Origin: Jiangella asiatica
Lineage (GTDB): Bacteria; Actinomycetota; Actinomycetes; Jiangellales; Jiangellaceae
Assembly: GCF_004349065.1 (NCBI RefSeq)
Contig: NZ_SMKZ01000017.1
Location: 62,001 to 126,000, forward strand
Length of the DNA: 64,000 nt
Direction of reading: 5' to 3'
In this document: in pieces, positions 2,383 to 46,340 of the stretch
How the letters are laid out: the number at the start of each line of letters is the position of its first letter
Position numbering within the stretch: position 1 is the stretch's first letter
Position numbers and translations under genes: made by a program
The notes under the pieces: model-generated
Seen by the model: the letters and a program-made list of their open reading frames with translations, nothing else
Told to the model about the DNA's origin: nothing
Databases searched by the model: none

Positions 2383-2455
2383 GGCCCCGTTGTGTAGCGG
2401 CCTAGCACGCCGCCCTCTCAAGGCGGTAGCGCGGGTTCGAATCCCGTCGGGGCTA
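2383..2455 (+). tRNA. tRNA-Glu(CTC), island integration target
   Basis: The acceptor stem GGCCCCG (2383-2389) pairs with CGGGGCT (2448-2454), with A2455 as discriminator followed by CCC rather than CCA. The anticodon stem-loop CCGCC-CTCTCAA-GGCGG gives anticodon CTC at 2417-2419. The T-arm has GGTTCGAATCC. From the anticodon loop to the 3' end it is repeated at 14911-14948 with one mismatch, the pattern left by tyrosine recombinases that use tRNA 3' ends as attachment sites. Confidence 0.95.
2415..2452 (+). repeat. Left copy of the 38-bp tRNA-Glu 3' direct repeat (att-like)
   Basis: Matches 14911-14948 at 37 of 38 positions (G at 2433, A at 14929). It begins exactly at the 5' edge of the anticodon loop, the usual crossover position for one class of tRNA-targeting tyrosine integrases. 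The following hairpin and the next ~80 bases are also recognisably similar between the two copies. Confidence 0.75.
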
Positions 2456-2463
2456 CCCTCGTG

Positions 2464-2505
2464 AAACGGCCCCTCACCTGCTAGAACGCAGGTGAGGGGT
2501 CGTTT
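2464..2505 (+). terminator. Intrinsic terminator of the tRNA-Gln/tRNA-Glu unit
   Basis: The arms CCCCTCACCTGC and GCAGGTGAGGGG form a perfect 12-bp stem with a 6-nt loop, extended by flanking AAACG and CGTTT, and followed by a T-rich run (TTTCTGTTTG). It sits 9 nt after the tRNA. Confidence 0.85.
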
Positions 2506-2541
2506 CTGTTTGTCCGGCCGTCCCCGGCCGTGGGCGGCTCT

Positions 2542-2790
2542 CTACGAACGTTCTCGCCTAGTACGCGCCCAAGTTTTCGCGGCGTCGGCGGTGAGGCCGA
2601 GCCACTGGGCGACGGGCGCGCCGACGTCGGCGAGGGAGGCGAGGTCGCGGCCGTGGCGGAGCGACGCCCCGCCGCCCGTTCCGGCGAGTACGGGAGACCC
2701 ACACGCGGGTGTGGAAGGGATGCCCGATGGCCGGGTCGTTGCCGTGGTCGCCGGTGACGATCGGCAGGTCGCCGGGGCCGAGCCGCTGGT
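2542..2790 (-). pseudogene. Remnant: phosphopentomutase-like C-terminus joined to a possible integrase tail
   Basis: Minus-strand reading gives PGDLPIVTGDHGNDPAIGH, matching the metal-binding TxDHGxDP block of phosphopentomutase (DeoB, alkaline phosphatase superfamily). After a frameshift it continues as GRDLASLADVGAPVAQWLG, the usual DeoB C-terminal helix region. Stop codons precede the fragment. The last ten codons (TWARTRRERS, stop at 2542-2544) resemble the SWARIWHRYP end of the integrase remnant at 15038 and lie at the same distance from the tRNA repeat, so the very end may come from an integrase instead. Non-functional either way. Confidence 0.55.
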
Positions 2791-2826
2791 GTGGTCACGA
2801 CCGTCAGCTCGTGCGGCAGGAAGCCG

Positions 2827-3855
2827 TCACTGGGCCGATGGGCGGTGCGGCGGCGCGGTCGAGGACCGTACGACCAGTGTCGGCGTCGGGGCCTCGACGC
2901 TCCCGGCGGCGTCGACGCCGAGCAGGCCGAGTAGCCGCCGCAACGCGGCTTGCCCCGCGGCGGCGAAGTCCAGTCGGACAGTCGTCAGCGGTGGCTGGTA
3001 GTAGGCCGCCTCTGGGACGTCGTCGAAGCCGACGACACTGACGTCCCCCGGTACCGTGAGGCCCGCTTCGTGCAATGCGGTGTAGACACCCAGGCACATC
3101 GCGTCGTTCGAGACGAGGATGGCGCTGACGCCGCCGCGCTCGAGGAGCGATCGGGCCGCCTGGTAGCCGGATGCGACACCCCAGTCTGCGCATGGCGCTG
3201 GTGCGGGAGGCCGGCGACCGGCGAGCGCCAGCTCGCGCCGCCAGCCGGTCTCCCGGGCCTCGGTGGCCATCCATCCGTCCGGGCCGCGGATGAAGTGCAC
3301 GGTGTGGTGTCCCAGCTCGAGGAGGTGGCGAGTGGTCAGTTGCGCGGCGAACTCCTCGTCCAGGGTGACGGCGTCGCGCGAGCCGGTCGTGCCCTGTTCG
3401 AAGGAGACGACCGGCATGGGAGCCTGGGTGGCCTGGAGGGCACGGGGCGCATCGACCATCGGCGCCAGCAGGACCGCGCCGTCGACCGCGTCGTCCGCCA
3501 GGTGCTGCAGTGCGGTCTGCAGGGACGACGCAGAGACGTCATCGAGCGTCACGAGATTGGTCGAGTAGCCGAATGCGCGTGCCTCCTCAGATACCCCGAA
3601 CAGTGCCAGTGACGGACTGGTGACGGAGAGGGCGTAGGTGATTACGCCGAGGTGCATCGACCGGTTCGTGACCAAGGCCCGTGCCATGGTGTTCGGCCGG
3701 TAACGCAGTTGCGCGATCGCCTCGCGTACGCGCTGGCGCACCGCCGGCGTCACATGTGGGTAGTCGTTGATGACGCGAGAGACTGTGATCACGGACACGC
3801 CAGCCAGACGCGCGACGTCAGCCATCCTCGGCGGCCGGCTCGTCTCCCGCTTCAA
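2827..3855 (-). CDS. LacI-family transcriptional regulator (first of two)
   Basis: 342 residues, full family length. The N-terminal helix-turn-helix is at about residues 11-30 (MADVARLAGVSVITVSRVIN), followed by the hinge region (PNTMARALVTNRS) and a type-1 periplasmic-binding-like sensor domain. It is the last gene of the minus-strand catabolic block, separated from the dehydrogenase small-subunit gene by a 12-bp GC hairpin, so it probably has its own promoter. It resembles the LacI gene at 7310-8368 along its length, with the same DFAAxGxxA...LVVRSS ending, and the two may have arisen by duplication. Likely a sugar-responsive repressor of the neighbouring operon; the ligand is unknown. Confidence 0.9.
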   Translation of the reverse strand: MKRETSRPPRMADVARLAGVSVITVSRVINDYPHVTPAVRQRVREAIAQLRYRPNTMARALVTNRSMHLGVITYALSVTSPSLALFGVSEEARAFGYSTNLVTLDDVSASSLQTALQHLADDAVDGAVLLAPMVDAPRALQATQAPMPVVSFEQGTTGSRDAVTLDEEFAAQLTTRHLLELGHHTVHFIRGPDGWMATEARETGWRRELALAGRRPPAPAPCADWGVASGYQAARSLLERGGVSAILVSNDAMCLGVYTALHEAGLTVPGDVSVVGFDDVPEAAYYQPPLTTVRLDFAAAGQAALRRLLGLLGVDAAGSVEAPTPTLVVRSSTAPPHRPSAQ

Positions 3856-3918
3856 CGTCGCTCCTCGTTCCGGGCACCCGCGCCATGCGCACGGACCACG
3901 AAGGAGCCTAGTCGGATG

Positions 3919-3946
3919 CCGGCCGGGCGGTGGTCCGCCCGGCCGG
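3919..3946 (-). terminator. Perfect GC hairpin between the catabolic operon and lacI
   Basis: The arms CCGGCCGGGCGG and CCGCCCGGCCGG (12 bp, no mismatch) flank the loop TGGT. It lies 9 nt beyond the stop of the small-subunit gene on the minus strand. There is no U-tract, so termination is likely but may be partial. Confidence 0.5.
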
Positions 3947-3954
3947 TGACACGG

Positions 3955-4668
3955 TCATGGCCGGTGGTAGCGCAGGACGGCCGGATGTCGCTCGTAGGGC
4001 CATTCCGCCTCTGGGATCATGTACTGCGCCGTCGTGTACGACCCGTCGGTCGTGCTCTTGAGCGTGGGTGGCCCGTCGAACCCGATCACCCGCCATCCGA
4101 TCCGGTCGATGTTGCCGCCGTAGACCGGGTCGGCGTAGAAGCCCTGCCGCGTGTTGAGTACGAGCAGCGGGAAGAAGTCGAGAAAGTCCTCGTTCATGGG
4201 CTGGTTTCCTGCAGGTGCGCCGCCGCCGCCGGCCTCGTCCCGGTGGAGCTCGTACGGACCTGGCTTCGCGGCGCCGGAGAGCCGTTCGAGCACGCGATCC
4301 TGCTCGTCGTCGCCGAGTTCGGCGAACGGTGCGCCGCCCTCTGTGTCTGCGAGCTCGTCGAGGTCTTGCACACCCTGGCGGTAGAGCTCGCCGCGGCGGC
4401 GGATCCGCTCCTCCCACGACTCGCGCTCCTTGCCGGTCAGCTGCAGAAATCCCGAGCCGTCGGCCGACGCGTAGACGAAGTCGATGCCGGCGAGCATGCG
4501 GTCGATGAACCGCACGACCCGTGCCTCCCGGGCCCCAGGGTGGCGGTCGGTCGGGATGATGCGCGCGGTGGCGGCATCGACGGTATTCCATTCGTGCGAG
4601 GTGAAGAACAGCGGCTGCTCGTTCGTCGCGGCGCTGATCGGCACGACGGCCCAGTCTGCTTGTCCCAT
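3955..4668 (-). CDS. Gluconate 2-dehydrogenase subunit 3-like small subunit
   Basis: 237 residues matching the gluconate 2-dehydrogenase subunit 3 family, which forms a small-subunit complex with GMC flavin dehydrogenases. Family features visible are the N-terminal FFTSHEWNTVDAATARIIPTD block and the C-terminal QGFYADPVYGGN block. It sits 24 nt downstream of the GMC gene, so the two proteins very probably form one enzyme. Unlike periplasmic gluconate dehydrogenases it has no twin-arginine or Sec signal, suggesting a cytoplasmic complex like the sugar 3-dehydrogenases. It ends just before a hairpin. Confidence 0.85.
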   Translation of the reverse strand: MGQADWAVVPISAATNEQPLFFTSHEWNTVDAATARIIPTDRHPGAREARVVRFIDRMLAGIDFVYASADGSGFLQLTGKERESWEERIRRRGELYRQGVQDLDELADTEGGAPFAELGDDEQDRVLERLSGAAKPGPYELHRDEAGGGGAPAGNQPMNEDFLDFFPLLVLNTRQGFYADPVYGGNIDRIGWRVIGFDGPPTLKSTTDGSYTTAQYMIPEAEWPYERHPAVLRYHRP

Positions 4669-4692
4669 TCTGTGTCCTTCCTGCCAGGCTCG

Positions 4693-6336
4693 TCAGCGCC
4701 AGTCGTGGCGGTCGTGGGTGAGCATGTGGTCGACGCACCGCCACGTGTTGGCCATGATCGTCAGGGCTGGGTTGATGCCGGTGGCGGTCGGGAAAAAGCT
4801 GGCGTCGAAGACGTAGAGGTTCGGTACGTCGTGCGCGCGGCACCAGCGGTCGACAACCGAGGTCGCCGGGTCGTCGCCCATTCGCGCGGTGCCGAGCTCA
4901 TGCGACGTGTTCCCGGTGATCCGTTCCATGTTCACAGGGATGATCTTGCTGGCTCCCGCGGCCTCCAGGATCTCCCCGTTCTTGGCCACCTGCCACCGCT
5001 CCTGCGCGTAGTCGTTGGGGTGAGGCGTGTGGGTGATCCGGGCGACCGGCAGGCCCCAGGCGTCCACGACATCAGGATCGAGATCGACCCGGTTGCTTTC
5101 CACCGGGAGGTCGTGGAGCAGAACTCCGATCTTCATCGAGTGGTTGAAGAAGTCGCGGTCGGCGTCCTTCGCCGCCTGTCCCCATGTCGGCCTGCCGGGG
5201 AAGGTCCAGTTGATCGGATGTCCGATCATCGACGGGAAGATCAGCGAGCCGAGCACGTGGCCGCGCGACTCGTCGGTTTCGTAGAAGTCGAACGAACACA
5301 GATTCATGTAGTGCCCCGACCAGCCGTACAACGGGTGGTGGAGCTGACGGTCGAAGAGGCCGACACTGAACGAGTACTGATGGAACGTGGCGTTCTTGCC
5401 GACCATGCCGGAGGAGTTGGCGAGGCCGTCGGGAAACAGCGCGGACGTCGACATCAGCAGCAGGCGAGGTGTCTCGATTCCACCACAGGCCACGATGACG
5501 GCCTTCGCTTCCTGGACGATCTCCGTGCCTTCGCCGTTCTGGTAGAGCACCCCAGTGGCACGGCCGTCCTTGCCCACGAGGATCTCGCGCACGTAGCAGT
5601 CGGGGCGCGGGTCGTACCGGCCCGTGGCGACCGCATCCGGGACGAACGTGATGAGGGTCGAGCTCTTGCCGGAGCCCGGGTCGGGGTACTGCTGCCAGAA
5701 GCCGTTCTCACTGAACGGTTCGCGTCCCCGGTACAGTTCGGTGACCATGCCCTGCGGCATCGGGAACGTGCTATGGCCGAGCTCGTCCATCGCGGTGGCG
5801 AACACTCGGCCGATTTGGCTGAGGTTCGACGGCCTGGTCGGGTAGCCGCGGCTGCGCCAACCCTCCCAGCGATTGGCGCCGGCGAGCCCGGACGTGCCGA
5901 ACTCCCACTCGACGCGAGTGTAGTAGGGCTCCATCTCGTCGTAGGTGATGGGCCAGTCGACCAGGCTTGCGCCGTCAACATCGCCGATGAGCGAGCGCAT
6001 CCGGAAGTCGTTCTCCGTCATGCGCGGCACCATCGCGCCCCAGTGGGTCGTCCCGCCGCCGACTACCTGCGGAGTCGCCGAGAAGTTGGTCACGACCGCC
6101 GTCTCCTGATCGTTGCGGCGGAACGTCCGGGGTTTGATCTTCGGATCCTGCCAGAGGTAATTGCGGTTGAGGATCTTCAGCTCGTCGCCCGAGGCGTGCT
6201 CGGGCTTGAGCCACGGGCCACGCTCGAGCCCGACGACGCGAAGGCCGGCCTCGGTGAGAACCTTGGCTGCGGTCGCACCGCCGGCCCCGGCGCCGACGAT
6301 GACGACGTCGACCGGGTCGGGGTTTTTCTCGGGCAT
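4693..6336 (-). CDS. GMC-family flavin oxidoreductase (sugar/cyclitol dehydrogenase-like)
   Basis: 547 residues from the ATG at 6336, chosen because GAGAGGTG lies 8 nt upstream and the longer frame would overlap the preceding gene. The N-terminal FAD-binding Rossmann motif VVIVGAGAGGATAAKVL is at about residues 10-26. The substrate half has GGGTTHWGAMVPR. The C-terminal GMC domain has TSHELGTARMG (active-site His) and GINPALTIMANT (Asn). With the adjacent subunit 3 protein it resembles the sugar/glycoside 3-dehydrogenases of actinobacteria. The substrate is probably the ligand of the linked ABC importer, oxidised in the cytoplasm with an unidentified acceptor. The gap to the upstream aldo/keto reductase is only 5 bp. 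Confidence 0.88.
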   Translation of the reverse strand: MPEKNPDPVDVVIVGAGAGGATAAKVLTEAGLRVVGLERGPWLKPEHASGDELKILNRNYLWQDPKIKPRTFRRNDQETAVVTNFSATPQVVGGGTTHWGAMVPRMTENDFRMRSLIGDVDGASLVDWPITYDEMEPYYTRVEWEFGTSGLAGANRWEGWRSRGYPTRPSNLSQIGRVFATAMDELGHSTFPMPQGMVTELYRGREPFSENGFWQQYPDPGSGKSSTLITFVPDAVATGRYDPRPDCYVREILVGKDGRATGVLYQNGEGTEIVQEAKAVIVACGGIETPRLLLMSTSALFPDGLANSSGMVGKNATFHQYSFSVGLFDRQLHHPLYGWSGHYMNLCSFDFYETDESRGHVLGSLIFPSMIGHPINWTFPGRPTWGQAAKDADRDFFNHSMKIGVLLHDLPVESNRVDLDPDVVDAWGLPVARITHTPHPNDYAQERWQVAKNGEILEAAGASKIIPVNMERITGNTSHELGTARMGDDPATSVVDRWCRAHDVPNLYVFDASFFPTATGINPALTIMANTWRCVDHMLTHDRHDWR

Positions 6337-6341
6337 CGCGA

Positions 6342-7313
6342 TCACACCTCTCGAGACGACGAACCAGTCTGGATGCCTGCGCGGCCAGGTTTGATGAGGG
6401 GATCCAGGGCAGCCCACAGCTCGTCGGGGACGGAGACGCCGAGCAGCTGCCGAGTCTGCTCGGGACGATCGGGGCGGGACATGCCGACAATCGTGGAGGC
6501 TACCCGTGCGTCCCGCGTCGAGAACTGGAGCGCGGCCGCGGCAAGGGGCACGTCGTGATCACGGCAGAGCGACTCTATGGCCTCCACCCTCCCCAGCACG
6601 TCGGGCGCGGCAGGGGCGTAGCAGTAGGTCGGCACCGCAGCCGGCCCGCGGGCCAGCATGCCTCCGCCGAAGGGGGCAGCGTTGACGAACCCGACGCCGC
6701 GAGCCGCGCACTCGTCGATGAGCTCGTCTGCGGACGAGTCCACCAGCGTCCACCGGTTGTGGCTGAGGACGACGTCGAAGAAGCCGGTCCGCAGGTAAGC
6801 CAGCTCCAGCTCGATGGGTCCGCCCGCGACACCGAGATGTTCGATGACGCCCTGTGCGCGTAGGTCCAGCATGGCCTCGACCGCACCGCCCGGGCCGGTG
6901 GCCTCGTCGAAGGAGATCTTTTCCGGGTCGTGGAGGTAGACCAGAGGGAGGGTGTCCAGGCCGAGTCGCTCGATGCTCTCGTCGACGGATCGCCGCACCC
7001 GCGCGCCTGAAAAGTCGGTCGTCCGCGGAAGTGGGTCGACCTTGGTTGCCACCAGAGCTCCGGACGGCAAACCGCCTCGCTCTGCGATCGCGCGGCCGAT
7101 GCGCCGTTCGCTGTCACCGCCGCCGTACTCGTTGGAGGTGTCGATGAACGTGAACTCGCTGTCGAGCGCGGCCAGAATGGTGTCGATCGCGGTTCTCTCG
7201 TCGACGTCGTAACCGTACTGTGCCGGGAAGCTGCCGAGGGCGCTGGTCCCGACGCACACCGGCGGGACTGACAGCCCCGTACTGCCCAGGTGTCGATGCT
7301 CGGTCGTGCTCAT
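6342..7313 (-). CDS. Aldo/keto reductase, D-threo-aldose dehydrogenase-like
   Basis: 323 residues, full length. The catalytic tetrad is visible: Asp and Tyr in FIDTSNEYGGGDSERRIG, Lys in ALVATKVDP and His in PLVYLHDPEK. The family (L-fucose/D-threo-aldose 1-dehydrogenase group) oxidises aldoses or reduces keto-sugars with NAD(P). The start overlaps the end of the upstream lacI by ATGA and its stop is 5 bp from the GMC gene, so it is transcribed and translationally coupled within the operon. Probably acts on the same sugar as the GMC dehydrogenase. Confidence 0.88.
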   Translation of the reverse strand: MSTTEHRHLGSTGLSVPPVCVGTSALGSFPAQYGYDVDERTAIDTILAALDSEFTFIDTSNEYGGGDSERRIGRAIAERGGLPSGALVATKVDPLPRTTDFSGARVRRSVDESIERLGLDTLPLVYLHDPEKISFDEATGPGGAVEAMLDLRAQGVIEHLGVAGGPIELELAYLRTGFFDVVLSHNRWTLVDSSADELIDECAARGVGFVNAAPFGGGMLARGPAAVPTYCYAPAAPDVLGRVEAIESLCRDHDVPLAAAALQFSTRDARVASTIVGMSRPDRPEQTRQLLGVSVPDELWAALDPLIKPGRAGIQTGSSSREV

Positions 7314-8368
7314 ACCGTGCCTTCCTGTCGCTGGTGGCGGTCCGGGCCGCCCGAGCTCGCGCGTACCACGAGCTCGGGGACGACCGGACTGCCGGCTTCT
7401 GATGTCTCCCTCCGGAGGAGAGCGAGGATCTTGTCGACTGCGAGCCGTCCTAGCGCCGCGAAGTCGACGCGCACCGTCGTGAGCGAAGGGCTGAAGTAGG
7501 CGGCCTCGGGAAAGTCGTCGAAGCCGACGACTGCGATGTCGTCCGGGATCCGCACACCTCGTTCGGTGAGGCCGGCCATGAGGCCCAGGGCGGTTTGGTC
7601 GTTGGCGACGAAGACAGCCGTGATGTCCGGCTGACCGGTGACGATCTCGGCGGCGCGGTAACCGGAGGCCGCGTCCCAGGACGTCGGGACGGGAATCGGG
7701 GCATGCAGACCGGCGGAGGTCAACGCCTCACGCCACCCGCGGATGCGAGCCTCTGTCGCGAGCCAACCTGGGGGGCCGCACAGGTGCAGGACCTTCGTGT
7801 GCCCGCGGGTGAGGAGATGCTGCGTGGCGATCCGCGCCCCGGCGACCTCATCGACGGCGAAGCTGTCCGGCCGGGGTACGCCGCCGGGCTCGAATACGAC
7901 GAGCGGGACGACGGTGCGCACGCCGTCGAGCGCGTGGAGAGCCGCCTCTACCGGAGCCAGCAGGACGATCCCGTCGACATGGTCGTCTACGAGGTGCCCG
8001 ATCGCCGCGCGCATCGCCGCCTTGTCCGTGTCGGCGAGACCGACGAGGTTCGTGGTGTACCCCTCCCGCCGAGCGGCCTCGGCGATGCCGGTCAAGGCGA
8101 CCGACGGCCCGTGCTGGGCCAGTCCCCAGCTGACCACGCCGATGCTCATGGTCCGGCTGGTGACGAGTGAGCGTGCGGCGGGGTTGCGCCGGTAGCGCAA
8201 CTGGGAGATCGCCCACTGGACGCGTTCGCGCACGTGCGGCGTCACGTTGGGGTGGTCGTTCACCACACGTGAGACGGTCTGCGGCGAGACGCCCGCCAGC
8301 CGTGCGACGTCGATCATGCGCGCCGCCCGCGGCGTGGTGGGCCGTGCCTTCGACCGGGGGTCGTTCAT
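7310..8368 (-). CDS. LacI-family transcriptional regulator (internal to operon)
   Basis: 352 residues. The helix-turn-helix at about residues 18-40 contains MIDVARLAGVSPQTVSRVVN and the hinge is NPAARSLVTSRTMS. The ligand-binding domain follows to the end. Its ATGA overlap with the downstream aldo/keto reductase and upstream Gfo/Idh gene shows it is embedded in the catabolic operon, so it probably controls its own transcription. Two LacI-type palindromes in front of the first gene are plausible targets for this protein or its neighbour at 2827. Confidence 0.9.
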   Translation of the reverse strand: MNDPRSKARPTTPRAARMIDVARLAGVSPQTVSRVVNDHPNVTPHVRERVQWAISQLRYRRNPAARSLVTSRTMSIGVVSWGLAQHGPSVALTGIAEAARREGYTTNLVGLADTDKAAMRAAIGHLVDDHVDGIVLLAPVEAALHALDGVRTVVPLVVFEPGGVPRPDSFAVDEVAGARIATQHLLTRGHTKVLHLCGPPGWLATEARIRGWREALTSAGLHAPIPVPTSWDAASGYRAAEIVTGQPDITAVFVANDQTALGLMAGLTERGVRIPDDIAVVGFDDFPEAAYFSPSLTTVRVDFAALGRLAVDKILALLRRETSEAGSPVVPELVVRASSGGPDRHQRQEGTV

Positions 8369-9336
8369 GTCTCGACCTCGACAGCTGCGCCGACAGCCGC
8401 GGCTTCGCGCATCGACAGGACGAGGCCCAGGCTGCGCGCATGGTCCGCGGCCGACGTCGGCACCGGGCCACCGCGGGTGGCGGCGACGAACGTGTGCAGC
8501 ACGGCCGCGAGGTCATTGTCCGGCGGATCCAGCGGCCTCGGGGCGGTGTCGGCGACGACGGCGCCGTCGCGCCGCACGACGAGGTCGCGCAGCTCGATGA
8601 CGCCGTTCTCGCCTCGCAGCGTCCAGTCTCCGTCGTACGGCGTCTCGCCGCCGCGGGCCGCCCAGGTGCCGCGGTAGGTGACGATGGCTCCGTCGTCGAG
8701 ACGCAGCAGCGCAGCGACGTCGGGTTGCCCGTCGTACGTCGTCCAGGGCGGACGCCCACTGGTCGCGGCGAGCACCGACGCATCTTGAGCGGTGAGGTGC
8801 CTGAGAAGGTCGAGGTGGTGGATCGCGAGGTCGTCGAGCAGCGGATGAGGCAGACGGGCCCGCCCGCCGTCGAGGAACTCGCCCCGAGCCACCTCGATCG
8901 AGACCTGGCTCAACCGGCCAAGCGTGGCGAGGTGATGGCGTACCACGGCCACCCATGCTCGCTCTCGGTAGTTCTGACACACCATGACGACGCTCGGCGC
9001 TGTGGCTGCGGTGGAGCACAGCACATCCAGCTCGGCCCGGTCGGCCACGGCCGGTTTCTCGACCAGAACGTGAAGGCCTCGCTCGGCCGCGGTGACGACG
9101 GCGTCGAGGTGCAGCCGCACAGGTAACGTCACGACTACCGCGTCGAGGTCCGGTTGGTCGAGCGCCTGGCGGTAGTCGCCCAAGTGCGCCAACGGGCGCC
9201 CGTCAGGGATGCCGCCGGCCGTCAGGACGACCTCGACGCCCGGCTCCCGGTCGAGCACCGGAAGCCACGTCCGGCCCCAGCGGCCGAGCCCGAGGACGGC
9301 CGTGCGCAGCGGGCGGTGTTCGCGGGTGGCCATCAT
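8365..9336 (-). CDS. Gfo/Idh/MocA-family NAD(P) oxidoreductase
   Basis: About 323 residues from the ATG at 9336; GAGGTGA lies 7 nt upstream, whereas the longer frame has no such site. The N-terminal nucleotide-binding motif TAVLGLGRWGRTW is at about residues 11-23 and the family signature VLVEKPAVADRAEL at about 90. Family members interconvert hydroxy and keto sugars or cyclitols. In combination with the GMC pair and aldo/keto reductase this makes three redox enzymes acting on one imported compound. An ATG at 9333 is an equally possible start. Confidence 0.87.
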   Translation of the reverse strand: MMATREHRPLRTAVLGLGRWGRTWLPVLDREPGVEVVLTAGGIPDGRPLAHLGDYRQALDQPDLDAVVVTLPVRLHLDAVVTAAERGLHVLVEKPAVADRAELDVLCSTAATAPSVVMVCQNYRERAWVAVVRHHLATLGRLSQVSIEVARGEFLDGGRARLPHPLLDDLAIHHLDLLRHLTAQDASVLAATSGRPPWTTYDGQPDVAALLRLDDGAIVTYRGTWAARGGETPYDGDWTLRGENGVIELRDLVVRRDGAVVADTAPRPLDPPDNDLAAVLHTFVAATRGGPVPTSAADHARSLGLVLSMREAAAVGAAVEVET

Positions 9337-9405
9337 CGCGGAGTCACCTCGATTCGATCGGATCGGAACGCGCCCGGACATGAGAGCCATGGCCGGGCGT
9401 CTCGG

Positions 9406-10506
9406 TCAGACAGCGGGGGGCGTCCACCCTTCCGGCGGTGTCAGCACGCCCCGCTCGACCAACATCCGGATCGTTGCGGCGCGGGTGCGCTCCTCGCGCT
9501 GGAGCCAGCCCTCGGCGGGCGGCGCGTCGAGATATTGGTTCTTCGGGTAGATGGGCTGGTCGTAGATCGCCCGGTACTGCTCGGTGCGCAGGTCCTTGAA
9601 CTGGTTGTAGAGGCCGTTCGCTACTCGCGCGCGTCGCAGCGCCTCGATGTCGACGGTCGTGGTCACGAACGAGTCCCCGGTGGTCCATCCCTGCTGACGG
9701 GTCAGGATCTGCCCCCGGGGGCCGACGATCATCGAGTTGCCGCCGAACAGATCCTGCACGCCGCCGTCGTCGCGATGCTCCGGACCGAGGTTGGGTGCGA
9801 CGACGTAAGCCGAGTTGAACATCGCGTGGGCGCGGTTCTGCAGCTCCCACATGCCGTTCTGCACCGAGGGCTCGATCAGTGTCGGACGGATGACGATCTC
9901 CGCGCCGTTCATGGCGAGCCCGCGGACGACCTCCGGATAGACGCCTTCGTGGCAGATGGCGATGCCGATGTTGCCGATCTCGGTACGCGCGACGGGAAAG
10001 ATCGCATCCATGACGTTCCCGTCGCCCTTCTTGGCGATGAACTCGTCCCACACGTCGTGCGGGTTCATGTTGCCGAGCATCCCGCCTTCGTAGGCGTCAC
10101 TCGTGGCCTTGTACCGCTTGTAGACGATCTCGCCCGACGGATCGATGACGAACGCGACGTTGAAGTAGCGGTCCGGGAAGTCGGGGTCGGCGACCATGTA
10201 CAACTCGGCCGCGATGTACGTGTCGAGCTGGACCGCCTTTTTCGCCAGTTCGTCGGTCTCCGGGCCGGGGATCGTCATCGCGAAATGCTTCTCCTGCGCC
10301 CGGTTGCCAGGAGTGTTGGCGATCAGGCCCTGGATCGCCATTTCGGGGATGACCACGAGACGGACCGGAGCGCCCTCCCAGGCACCCACCATGACAGCGG
10401 TATCGATGAAGTCGTTGATTCTCTGCACGTTGCGGAGGGCGTCGCCAGGCTGCTTGACGGTGAACGTCCGCGGGGACACGGCGACGACGGCATACGGGTC
10501 GATCAC
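9406..10506 (-). CDS. Nitrilase-superfamily amidohydrolase
   Basis: 366 residues. The superfamily triad is present: Glu55 in VVIPEMAIQG, a Lys at 130 or 133 (IVYKRYKATSD) and Cys185 in IGIAICHEGVYPE. Length and the NAEIVIRPT-type block fit the aliphatic amidase/formamidase-like branch rather than true nitrilases, but the branch cannot be fixed by eye. It is intracellular with no signal peptide. Lying between the binding protein gene and the redox genes, it suggests the imported compound carries an amide or nitrile, or that the pathway releases one. Confidence 0.85.
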   Translation of the reverse strand: MIDPYAVVAVSPRTFTVKQPGDALRNVQRINDFIDTAVMVGAWEGAPVRLVVIPEMAIQGLIANTPGNRAQEKHFAMTIPGPETDELAKKAVQLDTYIAAELYMVADPDFPDRYFNVAFVIDPSGEIVYKRYKATSDAYEGGMLGNMNPHDVWDEFIAKKGDGNVMDAIFPVARTEIGNIGIAICHEGVYPEVVRGLAMNGAEIVIRPTLIEPSVQNGMWELQNRAHAMFNSAYVVAPNLGPEHRDDGGVQDLFGGNSMIVGPRGQILTRQQGWTTGDSFVTTTVDIEALRRARVANGLYNQFKDLRTEQYRAIYDQPIYPKNQYLDAPPAEGWLQREERTRAATIRMLVERGVLTPPEGWTPPAV

Positions 10507-10545
10507 GGGACTTCTCCTTCGTTCGAGGACTGTTCGGAACGGCCG

Positions 10546-11577
10546 TCAGAACGGCCGGCTGGGGTCGTAGAACTCGGCCGCGTTCTCCGGGACGGCCAGG
10601 AAGGTATCGATCCACATCTCCCCGTCCGGGCACACGGAGTCCTGGGACTCGCCTTGGGCGGCGGCGACGGCGGTCTCGACGGCGACCTGACCCTGCCGGT
10701 ACGGCTCGTTGGAAGCGTCGGCCTGCACCGGGCCGTTCGGGTTGTCGATCAGCTCCTTGACGACGGACATCTGGCCGTCATAGGTGCCGATGATCACTTG
10801 ATCGAGGATTCCGGCGTCGCTCAGCCCCTGCTTGATCCCAGGGAGCATGACGTCGCTGAGGCTCAGCACGACCTGGAGATCAGGGTTCGCGGTGGCGATG
10901 TCGCGCACGGGCGCCAGCGCGCGGTCCGGCAACCACTCGCCGTAGCGGATCGGCAACCACTCGATGTCGCCGCCATAGCTCTCGAACCCCTCGACGACCC
11001 CTTCGTTGCGCAGGTCGGTGACGGTCTCGCCCGAGTAGCCGCCGATCACCACGGCTTTGACCTTCGCGCCGCCGAACCGCTCGTCCGCGACCTTCGCAAT
11101 GGCTTCCCCGAGCCCTTGGGCGACCGCCGGCTGGTCCTCGGCGACGTAGCAGAACTGCTGCGACGCGAGTTCGTCGGACAGGTTGGAGTTGACGACCACG
11201 AGCGGGACGTCCGCCTGAGTCACGGCAGACACCGCCGGCGCCACGCCAGTGGGGTCCTGCGGGTTCATGATGACGACGTCGGCTCCCTGTGTGAGCAGGG
11301 TCTGGACGTCGGAGTTCTGCTTGACCGTGTCGCCGCCGGCGTCGGTGACGATGACCTCGGCGCCGAGTTCCTGCGCCTTGTCCTCCGCACCCTGCAGCAG
11401 GGTGGCCCACCAGTCGCTTCCGGCCAGCCGGCGCTGGGAGAAGCCGATGGTGATCGACGCGTCACCGCTCGCTCCGTCGCCACCTGATCCGCCGCTCCGG
11501 ACACCGGAGCACGCGGTTAGCGCGAGCCCGGTCGTCAGCACGACGGCAACCGTTCGCGTCTTTGCGAGCTTGCTCAT
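10546..11577 (-). CDS. Sugar ABC transporter substrate-binding lipoprotein (RbsB-like)
   Basis: 343 residues from the ATG at 11577 (AAAGGA 8 nt upstream; the longer upstream frame lacks signal features). A lipoprotein signal ends in LALTACSG with the lipid-modified Cys at about 25. The mature part is a type-1 (Periplasmic_binding_4) sugar-binding fold, with ITIGFSQRRLAGSDWWATL near the start and NPDLQVVLSLSD later. It pairs with the downstream-encoded RbsC- and RbsA-like components to import a monosaccharide-like compound. Confidence 0.9.
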   Translation of the reverse strand: MSKLAKTRTVAVVLTTGLALTACSGVRSGGSGGDGASGDASITIGFSQRRLAGSDWWATLLQGAEDKAQELGAEVIVTDAGGDTVKQNSDVQTLLTQGADVVIMNPQDPTGVAPAVSAVTQADVPLVVVNSNLSDELASQQFCYVAEDQPAVAQGLGEAIAKVADERFGGAKVKAVVIGGYSGETVTDLRNEGVVEGFESYGGDIEWLPIRYGEWLPDRALAPVRDIATANPDLQVVLSLSDVMLPGIKQGLSDAGILDQVIIGTYDGQMSVVKELIDNPNGPVQADASNEPYRQGQVAVETAVAAAQGESQDSVCPDGEMWIDTFLAVPENAAEFYDPSRPF

Positions 11578-11709
11578 GATCGGTCCTTTCCCGTGGTCGA
11601 GCGAAGGTGTGGTCCGGCGGTCTCGTACGTGCCGAGTCCGTCGGCCGACGGATGGTTGCGTGAGGCTGCGGGCACGACGCATCGCGGGTGTCGGGTCGTC
11701 GCGGTGGCA

Positions 11710-12852
11710 TCAGTGGCCGGTTCGTCGCGGCGTGGTCTGCTGGGCGGCAGCGTCGGACGGAGTCGGCGCATCGTCGTTCGCGGCGGTGAGGCCCGAGCCC
11801 ATGAGACCCGAGCGCTCTCCGGCCGGCGGCCGGCGCAGGAAGCCAGCCGCGCCCTGCCGGAGGCGCTGGATGCCATTGCCCGACGTGAGGAACACCGCGA
11901 GCAGGATTACCAGGCCCCGGATCACCAACTGCGGCTCGGACTGAATGCCCACGAGGTTCATGATGTTGCCGATCATTCCGATGATCAGCGCGCCCAAGAC
12001 GGTCGAGATCGGGTCGCCGGTACCGCCGAACAACGAGGTGCCGCCGACGACGGCCGCGGCGATGGAGTCCAGCTCGTAGCCCTGACCGACCAGCGAAGAA
12101 CCCTGCGACAGCCTGCCCGCCAGCATGAGGCCGGCGAGGCCGGCGAGGAATCCCGATGTGACGTAGGCCAGCACGGTATCCCGATTGACCGGCAGACCGG
12201 ACAGACGGGCCGCCTCGGGATTGCCACCCAGGGCGTAGAGGCGCCGCCCGATCGGGCTGAACTTCATCGCAAACGCGGCGGCGAGTGTGACGACGAGAGC
12301 GATGAGCACGACGTTGGGGAGCGCGCCGGTGCGGCCGCCGAAAAGCTGCATGAACTGCTGGTTGCTGATCACGATGAGTGTGCCGACCTGGACGATGAAG
12401 GCCACACCTCGTGCGATCGACATCATGGCCAACGTCGCGACGAACGGGGTGATGCGCGCGTACACGACCATGACGCCATTGACCAGGCCGGCCAGGGCGC
12501 ACGACAGCAAGGCGACGACGATGGTCGCGACGACGCCGACGCCCTGCCGAAGGAGGACGGCCGCGATGACGGTCGACAGCGCCGCGATCGATCCGACCGA
12601 CAGATCGATGCCACGGGTCACGATGACGATGAACTGCGCGACGCCGAGCACGGCGACTACCGCCGCGGCTACGGCGATGTTCTCGAGGTTGCGCGCGGTG
12701 AGGAAGTACGGCGAGGCCAGGGTGCCGACCACGCCGACGGCCAGGAACACCAGCAAGAGGTAGGCCTGCGGGCCCGGCCGAGGGATGAACCTGCGCCGCG
12801 GCCGGGCTGTGGGGGAGGGCGCGGTCGGTGTATTGAGGGTCTTGGACATCAT
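11710..12852 (-). CDS. Sugar ABC transporter permease (RbsC-like)
   Basis: 380 residues of the branched/ribose-type permease family, with eight or more hydrophobic segments. The family motifs GGNPEAARLSGLPV (cytoplasmic coupling loop, about 225-240) and AAAVVGGTSLFGGTGD (about 280) are clear. A proline/arginine-rich N-terminal tail and a hydrophilic C-terminal tail (about 330-380) are unremarkable. It lies 21 nt downstream of the ATPase gene. Confidence 0.9.
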   Translation of the reverse strand: MMSKTLNTPTAPSPTARPRRRFIPRPGPQAYLLLVFLAVGVVGTLASPYFLTARNLENIAVAAAVVAVLGVAQFIVIVTRGIDLSVGSIAALSTVIAAVLLRQGVGVVATIVVALLSCALAGLVNGVMVVYARITPFVATLAMMSIARGVAFIVQVGTLIVISNQQFMQLFGGRTGALPNVVLIALVVTLAAAFAMKFSPIGRRLYALGGNPEAARLSGLPVNRDTVLAYVTSGFLAGLAGLMLAGRLSQGSSLVGQGYELDSIAAAVVGGTSLFGGTGDPISTVLGALIIGMIGNIMNLVGIQSEPQLVIRGLVILLAVFLTSGNGIQRLRQGAAGFLRRPPAGERSGLMGSGLTAANDDAPTPSDAAAQQTTPRRTGH

Positions 12853-12873
12853 CGTCTCCGGAAGGTGGTCGGC

Positions 12874-14382
12874 TCAGCGCAGGTGCGCCAGGAAGCCGTC
12901 GTGGTCAGCCTGGATCTGGTCGTGGTCCATTTCGGCAACGATGCGTCCGTTGGACAGGACGAGCACGCGGTCGCACAGCGCGGCCTCGGACACTTCGGAC
13001 GTCACGACCACAGCTGCTCCGCCGCCACGCAGATGCCGCCGGATCAGCCGGTAGATCTCCTCTTTGGCGGCGACGTCGACGCCGCGGGTCGGTTCGGCGA
13101 GCAGGAGCACACGGCTGTCCCTTGTGAGCCATCTGGCCAGCAGCACCTTCTGCTGATTTCCTCCGCTCATGGTGCGCACGCGCTGGTCGACCGAACTGCA
13201 CTTGATCTGGAGTTCTTCGACGAAGCGCCGGGCGTGTGCCGCTTCACGGCGCCCCTGCAGCATCGAGAAGCTGGTGAACCGGTCGATGGACGCGAGTGTC
13301 ATGTTCTTCATGGCGCTCATGTCCAGGACGAGGCCCTGCGTCTTGCGGTCCTCCGGGATCAGCCCGATGCCGTGCGCGATGGACTTGCGCGGCTTGTTCG
13401 GCGGGACGGTACGACCGGCCACGATCGTCCTGCCGGACGTCACCGGCCGGATGCCGAAGATGCACTCGGCGAGCTCGTTCTGGCCGGCACCGAGCAGACC
13501 GGTCACCCCCAGGACCTCGCCGCGACGCACCTGGAAGCTGCACGGCTGGAGCCGCGCACCGTCGGTGACCCCGTCGACCTCGAGCACGACGTCCTGCTGG
13601 GCGACGCCGCCGAGTTTGCCTTCCGCGCCCTCGGCCGCCGCGGCGGCAAGCGAGTTCTCGTACCGGTCTCCGACCATCGCCCGGACGATCTCGTGGTGTG
13701 GCGGCGGCCGGTCGAAGCGCGTCACCTTGCGGCCGTCACGCAGCACCTCGACGCTGTCGCAGACGCCCGTGACCTCGTCGAGGCGGTGCGAGATGAAGAT
13801 CAGGCCGACCCCATCGCGGGCCAGATCCCGCATCAGCGAGAGCAGGGCCTCGACATCTCGCGGCGGCAGCGTCGTGGTCGGCTCGTCGAGCAGGAGCATC
13901 GCCGGTTCGCTCTTGAGCGCCTTGGCGATCTCGACCAACTGCTGCTTGGCGATCGAGAGGTCGGCCACCCGTGTGTGCACGTCCACGTCGGCGCCGAGAC
14001 GGCCGAGCAGCCGGCGGGCAACCGTCTCCAGCCCCCGTCTCCGAACGACCATGCCTCGCCTGCGGAAATCGTCGAGAAAGATGTTGTCGAGGACGGTCAT
14101 CTGCGGCACCAGGCTCAGTTCCTGGTAGATCGTGCAGATGCCCGCCTGGCGCGCGGCGTGAGGTGTCGCGAGCCCCTGCACCTCGCCGCCGACGGCGATG
14201 CCGCCGCCATCGGGTTGCTCGGCACCGGAGAGGATCTTCACCAACGTCGACTTGCCCGCGCCGTTCGCTCCGCACAAGCCGACGACTTCGCCCTCAGCCA
14301 CCCTCAGATCCACCCCGCGCAGGGCCTGCACGCCGGGATAGGACTTGTGGATCCCGGTCACCTCGAGCGCCGAGTTCGCCAT
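12874..14382 (-). CDS. Sugar ABC transporter ATPase with two nucleotide-binding domains (RbsA-like)
   Basis: About 502 residues from the ATG at 14382, which has AGGAGGT 8 nt upstream. The first domain has Walker A GANGAGKS (about 35) and Walker B LLLDEPTTTLPP. The second has the degenerate P-loop typical of RbsA (TGLLGAGQNELAE) and signature MSGGNQQKVLLARW. Its Walker B reads LLLAEPTRGVD, with Ala where RbsA proteins normally have Asp, so the second site may be weaker than usual. It is the first gene of the operon and has a 500-bp leader with two LacI-type palindromes. Confidence 0.9.
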   Translation of the reverse strand: MANSALEVTGIHKSYPGVQALRGVDLRVAEGEVVGLCGANGAGKSTLVKILSGAEQPDGGGIAVGGEVQGLATPHAARQAGICTIYQELSLVPQMTVLDNIFLDDFRRRGMVVRRRGLETVARRLLGRLGADVDVHTRVADLSIAKQQLVEIAKALKSEPAMLLLDEPTTTLPPRDVEALLSLMRDLARDGVGLIFISHRLDEVTGVCDSVEVLRDGRKVTRFDRPPPHHEIVRAMVGDRYENSLAAAAAEGAEGKLGGVAQQDVVLEVDGVTDGARLQPCSFQVRRGEVLGVTGLLGAGQNELAECIFGIRPVTSGRTIVAGRTVPPNKPRKSIAHGIGLIPEDRKTQGLVLDMSAMKNMTLASIDRFTSFSMLQGRREAAHARRFVEELQIKCSSVDQRVRTMSGGNQQKVLLARWLTRDSRVLLLAEPTRGVDVAAKEEIYRLIRRHLRGGGAAVVVTSEVSEAALCDRVLVLSNGRIVAEMDHDQIQADHDGFLAHLR

Positions 14383-14425
14383 GCCCGTCGACCTCCTGCC
14401 GAGCCACATCGCTCGTCGGTCCTGA

Positions 14426-14441
14426 TTGGTAGCGCTATCAA
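14426..14441. promoter_or_regulatory. LacI-family operator, proximal copy
   Basis: TTGGTAGCGCTATCAA is a near-perfect inverted repeat around the central CG of GCGC, the typical LacI/GalR operator form, 44 bp upstream of the ATPase start. A second copy lies about 200 bp further upstream. Likely bound by one of the two LacI proteins of this locus (inference). Confidence 0.7.
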
Positions 14442-14624
14442 CGTGCCACACCGAGCACCTGTCCTGCAAGACCCCGAATGGCCTCCAGTTCGGGTTCGTG
14501 CATAGCGTCGACTCATGAATGGAGTGCCCGTTGAGCGGTTGACCAGCGTCGATGAGAGTTCGAGAGAGCCCGGTGGATGGCTAGGATCAGTCGGGCAGGG
14601 CAACTTGCATGAGCGTCGAGACAC

Positions 14625-14639
14625 TTGGTAGCGCTAACA
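14625..14639. promoter_or_regulatory. LacI-family operator, distal copy
   Basis: TTGGTAGCGCTAACA shares TTGGTAGCGCTA with the proximal site and keeps the central GCGC palindrome. The centre-to-centre spacing is about 199 bp, which would allow DNA looping. Confidence 0.65.
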
Positions 14640-14641
14640 GG

Positions 14642-14905
14642 ATGTCGGTGGGAAGCGCATGTCGTGGGATTCGGTGCGACAGCCGAGGCTGCCACCGCGT
14701 CCGGCGGGCGGCTACGAACGCCGTAGGCGCTTCCGTCGTGGCCGGCTCGACCAGCGTCGATGACTGCTTGAACGTGTCCGACTGTGAGCGACGATGTCCG
14801 GCCACCTACGGCCATGGTTTGGCGAGTACGTGTCCGAGTCCGCCCGTCGGCCCTTATTCGCTTGCATGGCAGCAGGTCAGAGCGAGTCCGCCTACTGACG
14901 GCAAA
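14642..14905. other. Non-coding stretch between distal operator and tRNA repeat
   Basis: No gene, repeat or RNA structure was recognised here. It forms the right end of the catabolic island and may hold the rest of an attachment region. Confidence 0.4.
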
Positions 14906-14954
14906 CCGCTCTCTCAAGGCGGTAGCGCAGGTTCGAATCCCGTCGGGGCCACCA
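14906..14954 (+). pseudogene. tRNA-Glu(CTC) 3' fragment, right copy of the att-like repeat
   Basis: Contains an anticodon stem-loop (CCGCT-CTCTCAA-GGCGG), variable and T-arm, and a 3' end with encoded CCA (GGGGCCACCA). The acceptor 5' strand and D-arm are missing: nothing like GGCCCCG lies 25-45 nt upstream. Positions 14911-14948 match 2415-2452 with one mismatch. Best read as the displaced 3' end of the tRNA-Glu gene left by a site-specific integration. Confidence 0.8.
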
Positions 14955-14960
14955 GTGGTA

Positions 14961-15007
14961 GATCGCCTCTCACCTGCTATAACGCGGGCGAGGGGCGATC
15001 TTGTTCT
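14961..15007 (+). terminator. Terminator hairpin after the tRNA-Glu fragment
   Basis: The arms GATCGCCTCTCACCTGC and GCGGGCGAGGGGCGATC pair with two wobbles and one mismatch, followed by TTGTTCT. It corresponds in sequence and spacing to the terminator at 2464-2505, so the tRNA end and terminator were duplicated or acquired together. Confidence 0.7.
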
Positions 15008-15037
15008 GTCCGGTTGTCAACGGCTCTGAATGGCTCG

Positions 15038-15169
15038 CTACGGGTATCTGTGCCATATGCGTGCCCAAGATTCTTTCCGCTCTGGGAGCCGGCCCAACGC
15101 TTGCTCGATCTTCGCCCGGTGTCGGTCTGCGTCGCCGTCGATGCACTTGGCGTAGATGGTGTGACCAGG
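15038..15169 (-). pseudogene. Tyrosine recombinase (integrase) C-terminal remnant
   Basis: The minus-strand frame ending at the TAG at 15038-15040 reads TIYAKCIDGDADRHRAK then IEQALGRLPERKESWAR. IYAKCIDG matches the catalytic-tyrosine block at the end of actinobacterial phage/ICE integrases (VYAKCIDG), and the acidic-basic helix after it also fits. Only about 43 residues remain; upstream it is joined in another frame to a transfer-protein remnant. It points toward and stops 84 bp from the tRNA repeat, which is where an integrase gene normally sits. Confidence 0.7.
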
Positions 15170-15651
15170 CCGCTGGTCTCGGTGCCGGACGGGTCGGCGC
15201 CGGCGAGGAAGACGTTTGCGTAGTCGCGGGGGCTCAGCCCGGAGGCGGTGTCCCAGGTGAACAGGGCCTCGGCGACCGCTTGGGCGTACACCAGCGGCTG
15301 GTTGGTGTTCGGCAGCGCCGGCAGGTCTTGCCCACTGCCCCTGATCTCAAGGTCGGGCGTGGCGCTCGGTTCGGGCGTGGTGGTCTGTGCCGTGTTGGGG
15401 ACCTACTCGAGCGTCAGAGCTGGGTCGGTCTCCTCCGGAGCGCCGGCCAGTCCGTACAGGGCGGCGAGGACGACGGCCACAACCGCGACGGCGACGGTGG
15501 CTACGACGGCCGTCCGGCGCCGGGCGGAGAGAGTGGATCGCGAGCTGGTGAGATTCACCGGGCGTAGGCATCCGGAGTGTGTAGCCGGTTCCACGGCAGT
15601 TCCACGCACGGTCATGGTCTTGCCGTCTTGCGGTCGGCACGATCGGAGCAC
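15170..15651 (-). pseudogene. Conjugative-element membrane protein, interrupted by an amber codon and truncated
   Basis: One minus-strand frame runs from 15651 with a basic stretch, a membrane segment (AVVATVAVAVVAVVLAALYG) and then GAPEETDPALTLE followed by TAG at 15403-15405. The same frame continues after the stop with PLVYAQAVAEALFTWDTASG and ADPSGTETSGLV. This layout (RRR, one membrane segment, then A-x-ALFxWDT and ADPSGxETxGL) matches small membrane proteins encoded beside transfer genes in Streptomyces-type conjugative elements. Homology is lost after GLVT, where the integrase remnant begins in another frame. Confidence 0.6.
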
Positions 15652-15895: not shown

Positions 15896-16087
15896 GCACC
15901 GGCGTCGTGCCGCGGCGCTACGCGCTGCGCCGGCATCGCGACCCGCCAGCGGTGCCCGGCGCCGGATCGTGGCGCACGGACCTAGTACCCGAGTGGTTCG
16001 GCGATGTTGGCGTGGTGCAGCGAGCAGCGCGCGAAGCGCGCCCGAAGCCCTGGTGATCAACGACAACGAGCAGAAGGACACACGACG

Positions 16088-16333
16088 ATGAGCGACCACG
16101 ACCTCATGAACGAATCTGCTGAGGCGCTACTACAGCCCTATGGGATGCGGTTCCTGCAGGCACCTCGTCGGGCGGCCCAGGGGCGTCCGGATGGTGTTCA
16201 CTACAGCTCCGAGCTGCAGCTGACTGTCGGCGCGGACGGGAACCCCTGGAAGACCGACGCGATGGCCTCCGAGACGTCGACGAACAATGACGGTAATCAG
16301 TCCGGCGAAGACACCAATACCGATCCATGGTGA
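16088..16333 (+). CDS. ATP-grasp-modified RiPP precursor peptide
   Basis: 81 residues from ATG at 16088 (AAGGA upstream). It has the two-part build of the actinobacterial ATP-grasp-modified RiPP family: a conserved leader block LLQPYGMRFLQAPR (residues 14-27) and a C-terminal tail rich in Thr, Asn, Asp and Glu (about 57-81, with NNDGNQSGEDTNTD). The tail supplies acceptor hydroxyl and carboxyl groups for the macrolactone links made by the ligase, and Asp residues for the methyltransferase. Its stop overlaps the ligase start (ATGGTGA). Inference: the product is a graspetide, possibly aspartimide-modified. Confidence 0.85.
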   Translation: MSDHDLMNESAEALLQPYGMRFLQAPRRAAQGRPDGVHYSSELQLTVGADGNPWKTDAMASETSTNNDGNQSGEDTNTDPW

Positions 16334-21414: not shown

Positions 21415-21483
21415 ACAGTGAAATGTAGACAGCCCTGAAACTCCATTGATGCCTGCGAACTACTCGGCATTCAACCGTCGGTC

Positions 21484-21795
21484 ATGGAGAACCGGCTGGC
21501 CCAAATCGTGGACGAGACCCCGCACCAGGCACCCCACGTTCTTCTCGCCGTCGCGCTCGGCGTTTTGGAGGGCTCCACCAGCCGCAACACCTGGCGCCAA
21601 CCCGACAACACAGCGCGGCGCTACTTCATCCAACTTGCCGCGTGGGGCTACACCCTCTCCGACGTCGAGCAGCAGGTCGCAACAGCGTCCGACGACGCCG
21701 TAGCCGACGGCGGCATCGGCGACGCCACCGAGCCCTCGGCTGAGGAACAGCCACCGACGACAGACCACGCCATCAGCCTTGTCGACGAGAACTGA
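21484..21795 (+). CDS. Hypothetical protein in the conjugative-element remnant
   Basis: 103 residues from ATG at 21484. The N-terminal half (ENRLAQIVDETPHQAPHVLL) is alpha-helical; the C-terminal part is acidic and proline-rich. No family recognised. It diverges from the GntR gene 70 bp away, so that regulator may control it. Confidence 0.5.
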   Translation: MENRLAQIVDETPHQAPHVLLAVALGVLEGSTSRNTWRQPDNTARRYFIQLAAWGYTLSDVEQQVATASDDAVADGGIGDATEPSAEEQPPTTDHAISLVDEN

Positions 21796-45799: not shown

Positions 45800-46240
45800 C
45801 GAACGGGCGGCTCCGACCCGAGCTCCCGCAACGACCGCCGCCTCGCCGTCGGCACCGGCTGGGTGAAGAACGGCGATCGCTGGATCGTCACCACGAATCA
45901 CGGCGACGGCGCGCTTACGGTCCGACGCGCCGATGGGCGCTGGCGGGGGACCGTCACACTGCCGTCCTGGTACGTAGCCGAACACGTCGATCTCGGCTAT
46001 GCGATCACGGCCCACCGCGCGCGAGGGGCCACCGTCGATGCCGCCCACGTGGTCGTGCGCTCCCCGGCCATGACGCGCGAGGCCTTGTACGTCGCAATGA
46101 CCCGAGGCCGGCACAAGAACATCGCCTACGTCGCCACCGATCGCGCACCTCAAGGAGCACCAGCGCGCAGGCGGCGACGACCCGACGGCGCGCTGGCCCA
46201 TGGCGTCAGTTACTCACAGGGCCGGGACCGATCGACTTGA
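45800..46240 (+). pseudogene. MobF relaxase/helicase, C-terminal remnant
   Basis: In frame to the stop at 46238-46240: RNDRRLAVGTGWVKNGDRW, LPSWYVAEHVDLGYAITAHR, and TREALYVAMTRGRHKNIAYV. This is the RecD/TraI-like helicase end of actinobacterial MobF relaxases (motifs RRNDRRL, ITAHRARG, LYVAMTRGR). The upstream ~800 residues are absent. It has the same orientation as the N-terminal remnant at 22943-23613. Confidence 0.8.
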
Positions 46241-46340
46241 GCATGTGCCCCGTCGGCCACCCCCCGGCCCGCGACGCGTCGGCCCCACATTTGTAGGGCG
46301 GTGCGCCAGTGGTCGTGCCGGAGGCAGACCACCCATTGGG

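Follow-up and report, generated by a model that had tools for sequence, protein, structure and literature searches.

How did an intact tRNA-Glu gene and a truncated copy of its 3' end come to lie about 12.5 kb apart in the genome of Jiangella asiatica, with a sugar-oxidation operon between them? The question concerns a stretch of 64,000 nucleotides (hereafter the window), which corresponds to positions 62001-126000 of contig C34 (NZ_SMKZ01000017.1) in an assembly of 7.03 Mb in 134 contigs; the contig extends 4.6 kb beyond the window's right end. tRNA genes were called by ARAGORN and protein families by Pfam and NCBIfam, and the locus was compared with 11 same-genus relatives (G001-G011, making 12 genus genomes with this one) and with genomes of other genera (G012, G015, G017, G018, G019, G020 and G021). 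Since the arms that meet at the inner boundary fall in different groups, the window very probably holds two decayed elements of different lineage, integrated in tandem at a tRNA-Glu(CTC) hot spot.

The site begins with the tRNA-Gln(CTG) gene (2221-2293), a conserved left neighbour, followed by the intact tRNA-Glu(CTC) target gene (2383-2457), both on the plus strand; the pair is matched in 11/11 same-genus relatives. Alignments place the attachment core at 2415-2456 and its displaced copy, the boundary of elements 1 and 2, at 14911-14952 on the plus strand. The two cores are identical at 40 of 42 bases and at 37 of the first 38, and ARAGORN calls no tRNA at the second copy. Past the core, the similarity runs on through the terminator; over 137 bases, core included, it amounts to 78%. 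Both starting observations of the sequence-only reading are thereby confirmed, namely an intact tRNA-Glu with a 5'-less 3' copy, and a similar terminator and similar sequence behind each. When 14 tRNA-proximal and 12 partial rows were aligned, most partial rows were found to start in the anticodon loop (CTCTCAAG...), with the shared core extending to the tRNA 3' end. A scan of the window plus 20 kb to its left and 4.6 kb to its right, allowing up to 13 mismatches, detected the core at two places only; among 20 mononucleotide shuffles of the plus strand, the closest chance matches still differed at 13 to 18 positions. Across the whole assembly, a 62-base query gave 18 matches at E <= 10, consisting of tRNA-Glu(CTC), the displaced copy, tRNA-Glu(TTC) on contig C101 and 15 matches of at most 28 bases (E >= 0.058). 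The third tRNA-Glu 3' copy for which the sequence-only reading had suggested looking was absent from this search.

In the model proposed here, tRNA-Glu(CTC) would be a hot spot at which elements of one tyrosine-integrase family integrate, every element having an attachment site (attP) composed of a left (P) arm, the 42-bp core and a right (P') arm. The P' arm would lie inside the end of the integrase gene, so that integration would restore the tRNA and supply its terminator. In five of the 11 same-genus genomes (G001, G004, G007, G008 and G009), a whole or nearly whole tyrosine integrase (about 400-490 matched residues; PF00589 at E 3.7e-9 for that of G001) lies right of tRNA-Glu and points at it, and the last codons of the relatives' whole integrases run through the terminator. 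Pieces of 66 and 135 residues occupy this position in G010 and G011, and tails only, read by eye, in G002, G003, G005 and G006. In the window, the integrase beside the tRNA-proximal end is likewise present as relics only. The P' arm of element 1 (2458-2583, minus strand) comprises the terminator and the last 33 integrase codons (2484-2582), which match residues 457-489 of the G001 integrase at 73% identity and end in frame at 2481 (...GENVRREPPTAGDGRTNRNDPSPAF). The P' arm of element 2 (14953-15172, minus strand) comprises a terminator and a frame-shifted tail, whose two pieces in two frames (at 14986-15069 and 15089-15157) between them match residues 431-453 (65%) and 460-487 (46%) of the same protein. 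The integrase tails previously noticed at both copies are therefore real, with the correction that the 'TWAR...stop' read at the first copy lies in another frame.

The P arm of element 1 (14741-14910, plus strand) bears the arm motif GGCGAGTACGTGTCCGAGTC at 14821 and is conserved left of partial cores in relatives, and an arm with the motif GGCGAATACGTGTCCAAGTT is found left of partial copies. With cores of more than six mismatches left out of the count, the heptamer CGTGTCC of this motif lies within 100 bp left of the core in 10/13 partial copies and in 0/17 tRNA copies. A related motif stands right of the core within the integrase end, at 2560 in the P' arm of element 1 and at 15056. These motifs may represent integrase arm sites. 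The tree for the 190-base stretch to the right of the core (30 rows) joins window copy 1 to G001 (81/68) inside an own-genus group (90/93) and places copy 2 at 100/100 in a 10-row group whose other members all come from other genera (G012, G015, G017, G019, G020 and G021). The 150-base stretch to the left of partial cores (17 rows, G010 arms absent) gave a tree in which the window's left arm groups with arms of its own genus, from G007 and G009, at 98/97. This mismatch of lineages supports a chimeric boundary at 14.9 kb, where an own-genus left arm would be joined to an other-genera right arm, and such a junction would imply two different elements in tandem, not a duplication.

Two other origins of the second core can be weighed against the same data. 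A duplication of the tRNA-Glu region within the genome, leaving an ancient duplicated tRNA, would account for the core, terminator and integrase tail common to both copies, but it is very improbable in view of the right arms of different lineages, the arm left of copy 2 (with its heptamer beside 10/13 partial copies and 0/17 tRNA copies), and the occurrence of partial core copies with P' sequence at other places in 8/11 same-genus genomes (G001 and G004-G010; none in G002, G003 and G011). A duplicated tRNA was accordingly rejected on the arm lineages of both trees. Somewhat less remote, though still improbable, is a single composite island with the second core as an internal attachment site. 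It would agree with the lack of a third core to close element 2, but the integrase tails behind the two cores are separate ones that differ in lineage, as do the two boundary arms.

Comparison of the locus among relatives further supports tandem integration of two elements. In one alignment of the 11 same-genus genomes, the spacer between tRNA-Gln and tRNA-Glu is 73-84% identical to that of the window, whereas identity to the first P' arm (126 bases) ranges from 58 to 87%, with 77-87% in G001, G003-G007 and G009 and 58-71% in G002, G008, G010 and G011. The wider range of P' points to turnover independent of the flank. The partial copies of the same-genus relatives are found at distances from 12 kb up to megabases, some of them on different contigs, and G012, from another genus, has two partial copies, at 3.7 and 15.8 kb, a stack resembling that of the window. 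Left of tRNA-Gln, in a segment that runs here from about -10.2 kb to 2150, G002, G003, G006, G008 and G018 are collinear with this genome over the 5 to 8 kb compared. In G001, G004, G005, G007 and G009-G012, no more than about 400 bp separate the tRNA pair from the sequence that this genome has some 10.2 kb to the left of the window. Right of position 2632 or so, the window and the relatives' right flanks have in common only attachment ends and weak gene-level matches (about 59%). A search with window positions 44-64 kb in 14 genomes gave scattered matches, from which no clear ancestral right flank emerged. As possible empty-site references, G003 was set aside since the matches to its right flank are spread over several separate places in other genomes, and G010 since its right flank (L043 3318-19865 against L048) corresponds to part of the left flank of this genome in inverted orientation, a rearrangement around the tRNA pair. 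At C1 2381353 and 2421493, G010 also has two copies of the P arm together with about 30 bp of core; they lie 40 kb from one another and well away from tRNA-Glu, and may belong to elements of the family at other sites. No integrase sequence was found at tRNA-Glu in G018, which belongs to another genus.

Element 1 (2458-14910) still has both arms and holds a foreign sugar-oxidation operon, and little is left of its integrase. Its ten genes at 2827-14409 are all on the minus strand and are metabolic, transport or regulatory by Pfam. They encode a LacI-type regulator (2827-3855), a gluconate 2-dehydrogenase subunit 3-like protein (3955-4668, PF13618), a GMC-family flavin adenine dinucleotide oxidoreductase (4693-6345, PF05199/PF00732), an aldo/keto reductase (6342-7313, PF00248), a second LacI-type regulator (7310-8368) and a Gfo/Idh/MocA oxidoreductase (8365-9390, PF01408). 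These are followed by a carbon-nitrogen hydrolase resembling nitrilases and formamidases (9406-10506, PF00795, with NCBIfam scores below cut-offs), a ribose-type sugar-binding protein (10546-11589, PF13407), and the permease (11710-12852, PF02653) and ATPase (12874-14409, PF00005) of a sugar ATP-binding cassette (ABC) transporter. The GMC oxidoreductase and the subunit 3-like protein together suggest oxidation of a sugar or glycoside.

The distribution of this operon is patchy. At E <= 1e-60, the GMC gene of this genome has counterparts in two of 59 other genomes (G017 and G056, with identities of 34 and 38%), neither of them one of the 11 same-genus relatives; the operon nitrilase is found at the same threshold in 1/12 genus genomes. 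These counts support an origin of the operon outside the genus, and they refute the alternative that the genes between 2.5 and 14.9 kb are conserved backbone of close relatives. In a non-exhaustive pattern scan of 84,980 named genomes, nitrilase relatives were detected at 22 loci. Seventeen of these show 78-88% identity and belong to genera that are taken here to be Actinobacteria; the others are a Bauldia bin (79%), a Verrucomicrobiota bin (73%) and three loci at 39-42%. The GMC gene lies beside the nitrilase in 12 of the 22 loci, and in Cellulomonas septica 9/10 operon genes are collinear at 67-87% identity, Gfo/Idh being absent. Among 18 nitrilase loci given to ARAGORN, one had a tRNA nearby, a tRNA-Met. 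Furthermore, the GMC gene has a match of 85% on a plasmid of Arthrobacter sp. StoSoilB13, and the other 699 matching plasmid records lie below 60%.

With the intact tRNA at one end and the displaced 3' copy at the other, element 1 has the layout of a genomic island. It has both attachment ends and neither integrase nor transfer genes, and so resembles a cis-mobilizable element (CIME) that could be moved by an incoming relative. At its left end, the integrase tail adjoins a frame-shifted fragment of a deoB-like phosphopentomutase gene (2581-2785, minus strand), which is 80-85% identical to genes of G004, G005, G008 and G010. The family call is weak, with Pfam Metalloenzyme below cut-off and 9/10 PDB matches being phosphopentomutases at E 0.02-0.06. 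The earlier proposal of a 12.5-kb operon element inserted at the tRNA thus stands as regards a foreign island at tRNA-Glu and fails as regards an intact arrival, as the integrase is nearly all deleted and its tail meets the deoB-like fragment.

This left junction also speaks for a different history, in which the relic attachment ends would be old and inherited, and the operon would have entered later by homologous or illegitimate recombination between relics, with no integrase involved. Such an entry would also suit a genome where no whole integrase of the family was found at E <= 1e-40, beyond the tails and one broken piece on contig C51. It is nevertheless regarded as unlikely, because integrated elements usually end on the far side in a P arm and displaced core like those at 14.7-14.95 kb, such ends occur in relatives alongside whole integrases, and the variation of P' between genomes, set against that of the spacer, speaks for repeated replacement. 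Integration of element 1 as part of a tandem pair remains the preferred explanation.

Element 2 (14953 to at least 46.2 kb) would be a badly decayed conjugative element in which a 22-kb catabolic cluster has split the relaxase gene. It opens with a truncated membrane protein (15160-15552, minus strand), a homologue of L153:2651-3349 in the conjugative element of G007. On the plus strand follow an ATP-grasp cassette for a ribosomally synthesized and post-translationally modified peptide (RiPP), with precursor, maturase and methyltransferase (16004-18515; TIGR04186, TIGR04187 and TIGR04188), a helix-turn-helix regulator common to relatives' conjugative elements (18622-20148; assigned by comparison with relatives, its family match being below cut-off), a ParB-like fragment (21460-21783) and a frame-shifted MobF/TrwC relaxase pseudogene with residues 1-209 (22943-23568). 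The second catabolic cluster (23696-44997) contains sugar ABC permeases with a binding protein, a further binding protein, SIS and RpiR proteins, Ldh_2, a 3-keto-disaccharide hydrolase-like protein and others. Behind it lies the second part of the relaxase relic (45827-46244, plus strand), with residues 788-893 and 895-927. The gene order from 15160, comprising membrane protein, small protein, helix-turn-helix regulator, ParB region and MobF start, is that of G004 (L151) and G007 (L152/L153), and the RiPP cassette sits between the small protein and the regulator. A collinear copy of the cassette occurs in G007 (L154), where a tRNA-Leu stands beside it.

The G007 element has a complete MobF relaxase of 1179 residues and SCO6880-, SCO6881- and VirB4-like proteins; the L151 relaxase is 91% identical to that of G007, and the relaxase pieces of the window show 73-75% DNA identity to the G004 and G007 genes. 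Residues 210-787 were not found, and the 22-kb cluster would have replaced the middle of the gene. As the relaxase is split by this cluster, element 2 reaches at least 46.2 kb. Near tRNA-Glu, no element 2 genes were found in G001, G008 and G009 (55-80 kb read) or in G003, G006, G007, G010, G011, G012 and G018 (up to 20 kb read); G005 has one 34-residue piece, and further relatives of these genes occur in G004 at a distance of 26-58 kb to the right of tRNA-Glu, ahead of its next copy at 1150.7 kb. Measured against an integrative and conjugative element (ICE), element 2 offers a relaxase in pseudogene pieces only (residues 1-209 and 788-927), and its type IV secretion genes are reduced to a truncated homologue of one membrane protein. 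The SCO6880, VirB4 and SLT proteins of G007 have no match in the window, and its SCO6881 has scattered matches of 23-39% that were lost in a stricter search. A TraB/FtsK-like translocase, characteristic of an actinomycete ICE (AICE), was not found among the window proteins given to Pfam, a subset of the open reading frames. A plasmid search with 46.6-53.1 kb gave partial matches only. Judging from this gene content, element 2 is a remnant and not a working ICE. The right-hand conjugative element of the sequence-only reading is hence upheld as a conjugative relic, recognisable by its relaxase pieces and the gene order of relatives, with its extent corrected to at least 46.2 kb and with the qualification that it was itself invaded.

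Several observations weigh against two tandem elements. The trees are short (150-190 bases), with strong inner branches at 4/27 (right) and 2/14 (left) and some long-branched rows. In plain identity to the window's P arm, the arms of G006, G001 and one of G009 (48, 42 and 28%) score no higher than arms from other genera (42-48%), so that the separation is not clean. The arm heptamer is missing from 3/13 partial copies, all in other genera. An empty tRNA-Glu site, which the sequence-only reading had suggested seeking in related genomes, was found in none of the 11 same-genus relatives, all of which hold whole, partial or tail-only integrase sequence there. The integrase tail of element 1 meets a deoB fragment of genus type, which means that the 12.5-kb unit did not arrive in its present form. 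Finally, the far end of element 2 was not found, with no third core in the assembly and a contig that ends 4.6 kb past the window.

The order of arrival is a separate matter. The sequence-only reading had a newer operon element pushing an older conjugative element to the right; two islands of different lineage do abut at tRNA-Glu, but insertion at either core of the first element gives the same map, and the layout therefore cannot show which came first. The displaced core carries two substitutions, and 6/13 partial copies (in G004, G006, G007, G009, G020 and G021) carry none. Those two substitutions suggest that the last integration event was not recent. Integration would have brought both elements to the site, deletion would account for their decay, and both would now be immobile: because no whole integrase of the family was found in the genome, neither should move on its own. 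The broken piece on contig C51 (44531-44863, L110) is a frame-shifted integrase relic, 81% identical to that of G001 over 89 residues, and no core was found beside it. On contig C94, 43 bases (14152-14194) resemble the integrase tail of copy 2 (84%, E 7e-4) and may be one more relic. A prophage origin was rejected, as 50,697 phage records yielded a single weak match to the integrase, at 20% identity. In plasmid records it has eight matches, four of which cover most of the integrase at 38-44% identity in Streptomyces and Nonomuraea; the attachment region matched three plasmid records, in its tRNA part alone.

Stacking of islands at a tRNA gene is already known elsewhere, and the tRNA-Glu(CTC) case is a further one. 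Accretion and decay of AICEs in Streptomyces, for example at a tRNA-Arg gene, are described in PMC9513070; as there, different elements lie in tandem between direct repeats at one site, and remnants combine truncated integrases with cargo. Unlike those AICEs, which are of TraB type with several functional, the window has tRNA-Glu(CTC) as target, a MobF relic with relatives of the type IV secretion system type, and no whole integrase (PMC9513070). PMC3146451 reports tandem islands at ssrA in Dehalococcoides, some of them proposed to be cis-mobilizable. The likeness lies in islands in tandem downstream of one RNA gene, some having both attachment sites and no integrase; the difference lies in the serine recombinase and 20-bp ssrA repeat of Dehalococcoides as against the tyrosine integrase and 42-bp tRNA core of the window (PMC3146451). 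Tandem AICEs also occur in Frankia at tRNA-Lys and in Streptomyces avermitilis at tRNA-Arg, likewise two actinobacterial elements in one tRNA gene, with integrases that are closely related in Frankia and of different subfamilies in S. avermitilis, according to PMC3218068. The Frankia pair excises singly and jointly, in contrast to the window, where no whole integrase was found (PMC3218068). The term 'trna-glu' is absent from PMC9513070 and PMC3218068, which has no bearing on the literature in general.

A broader picture can be drawn tentatively, and is less likely than the tandem pair itself. The tRNA-Glu(CTC) gene might be a family-wide hot spot where several integrase lineages that are not confined to one genus pile up in tandem, where the ends of integrase genes encode both terminator and arm site, and where the stacks slowly trap catabolic operons in defunct elements, including whole clusters within transfer genes. 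The chimeric boundary provides a simple test of accretion against duplication that is usable at other sites. Altogether, the locus offers one hot spot in enough genomes for a comparison, since in 11/11 same-genus relatives integrase sequence comes after the tRNA and the DNA beyond it differs, and it marks a likely path into one species of the genus for a sugar-oxidation operon that is known from other actinobacteria.

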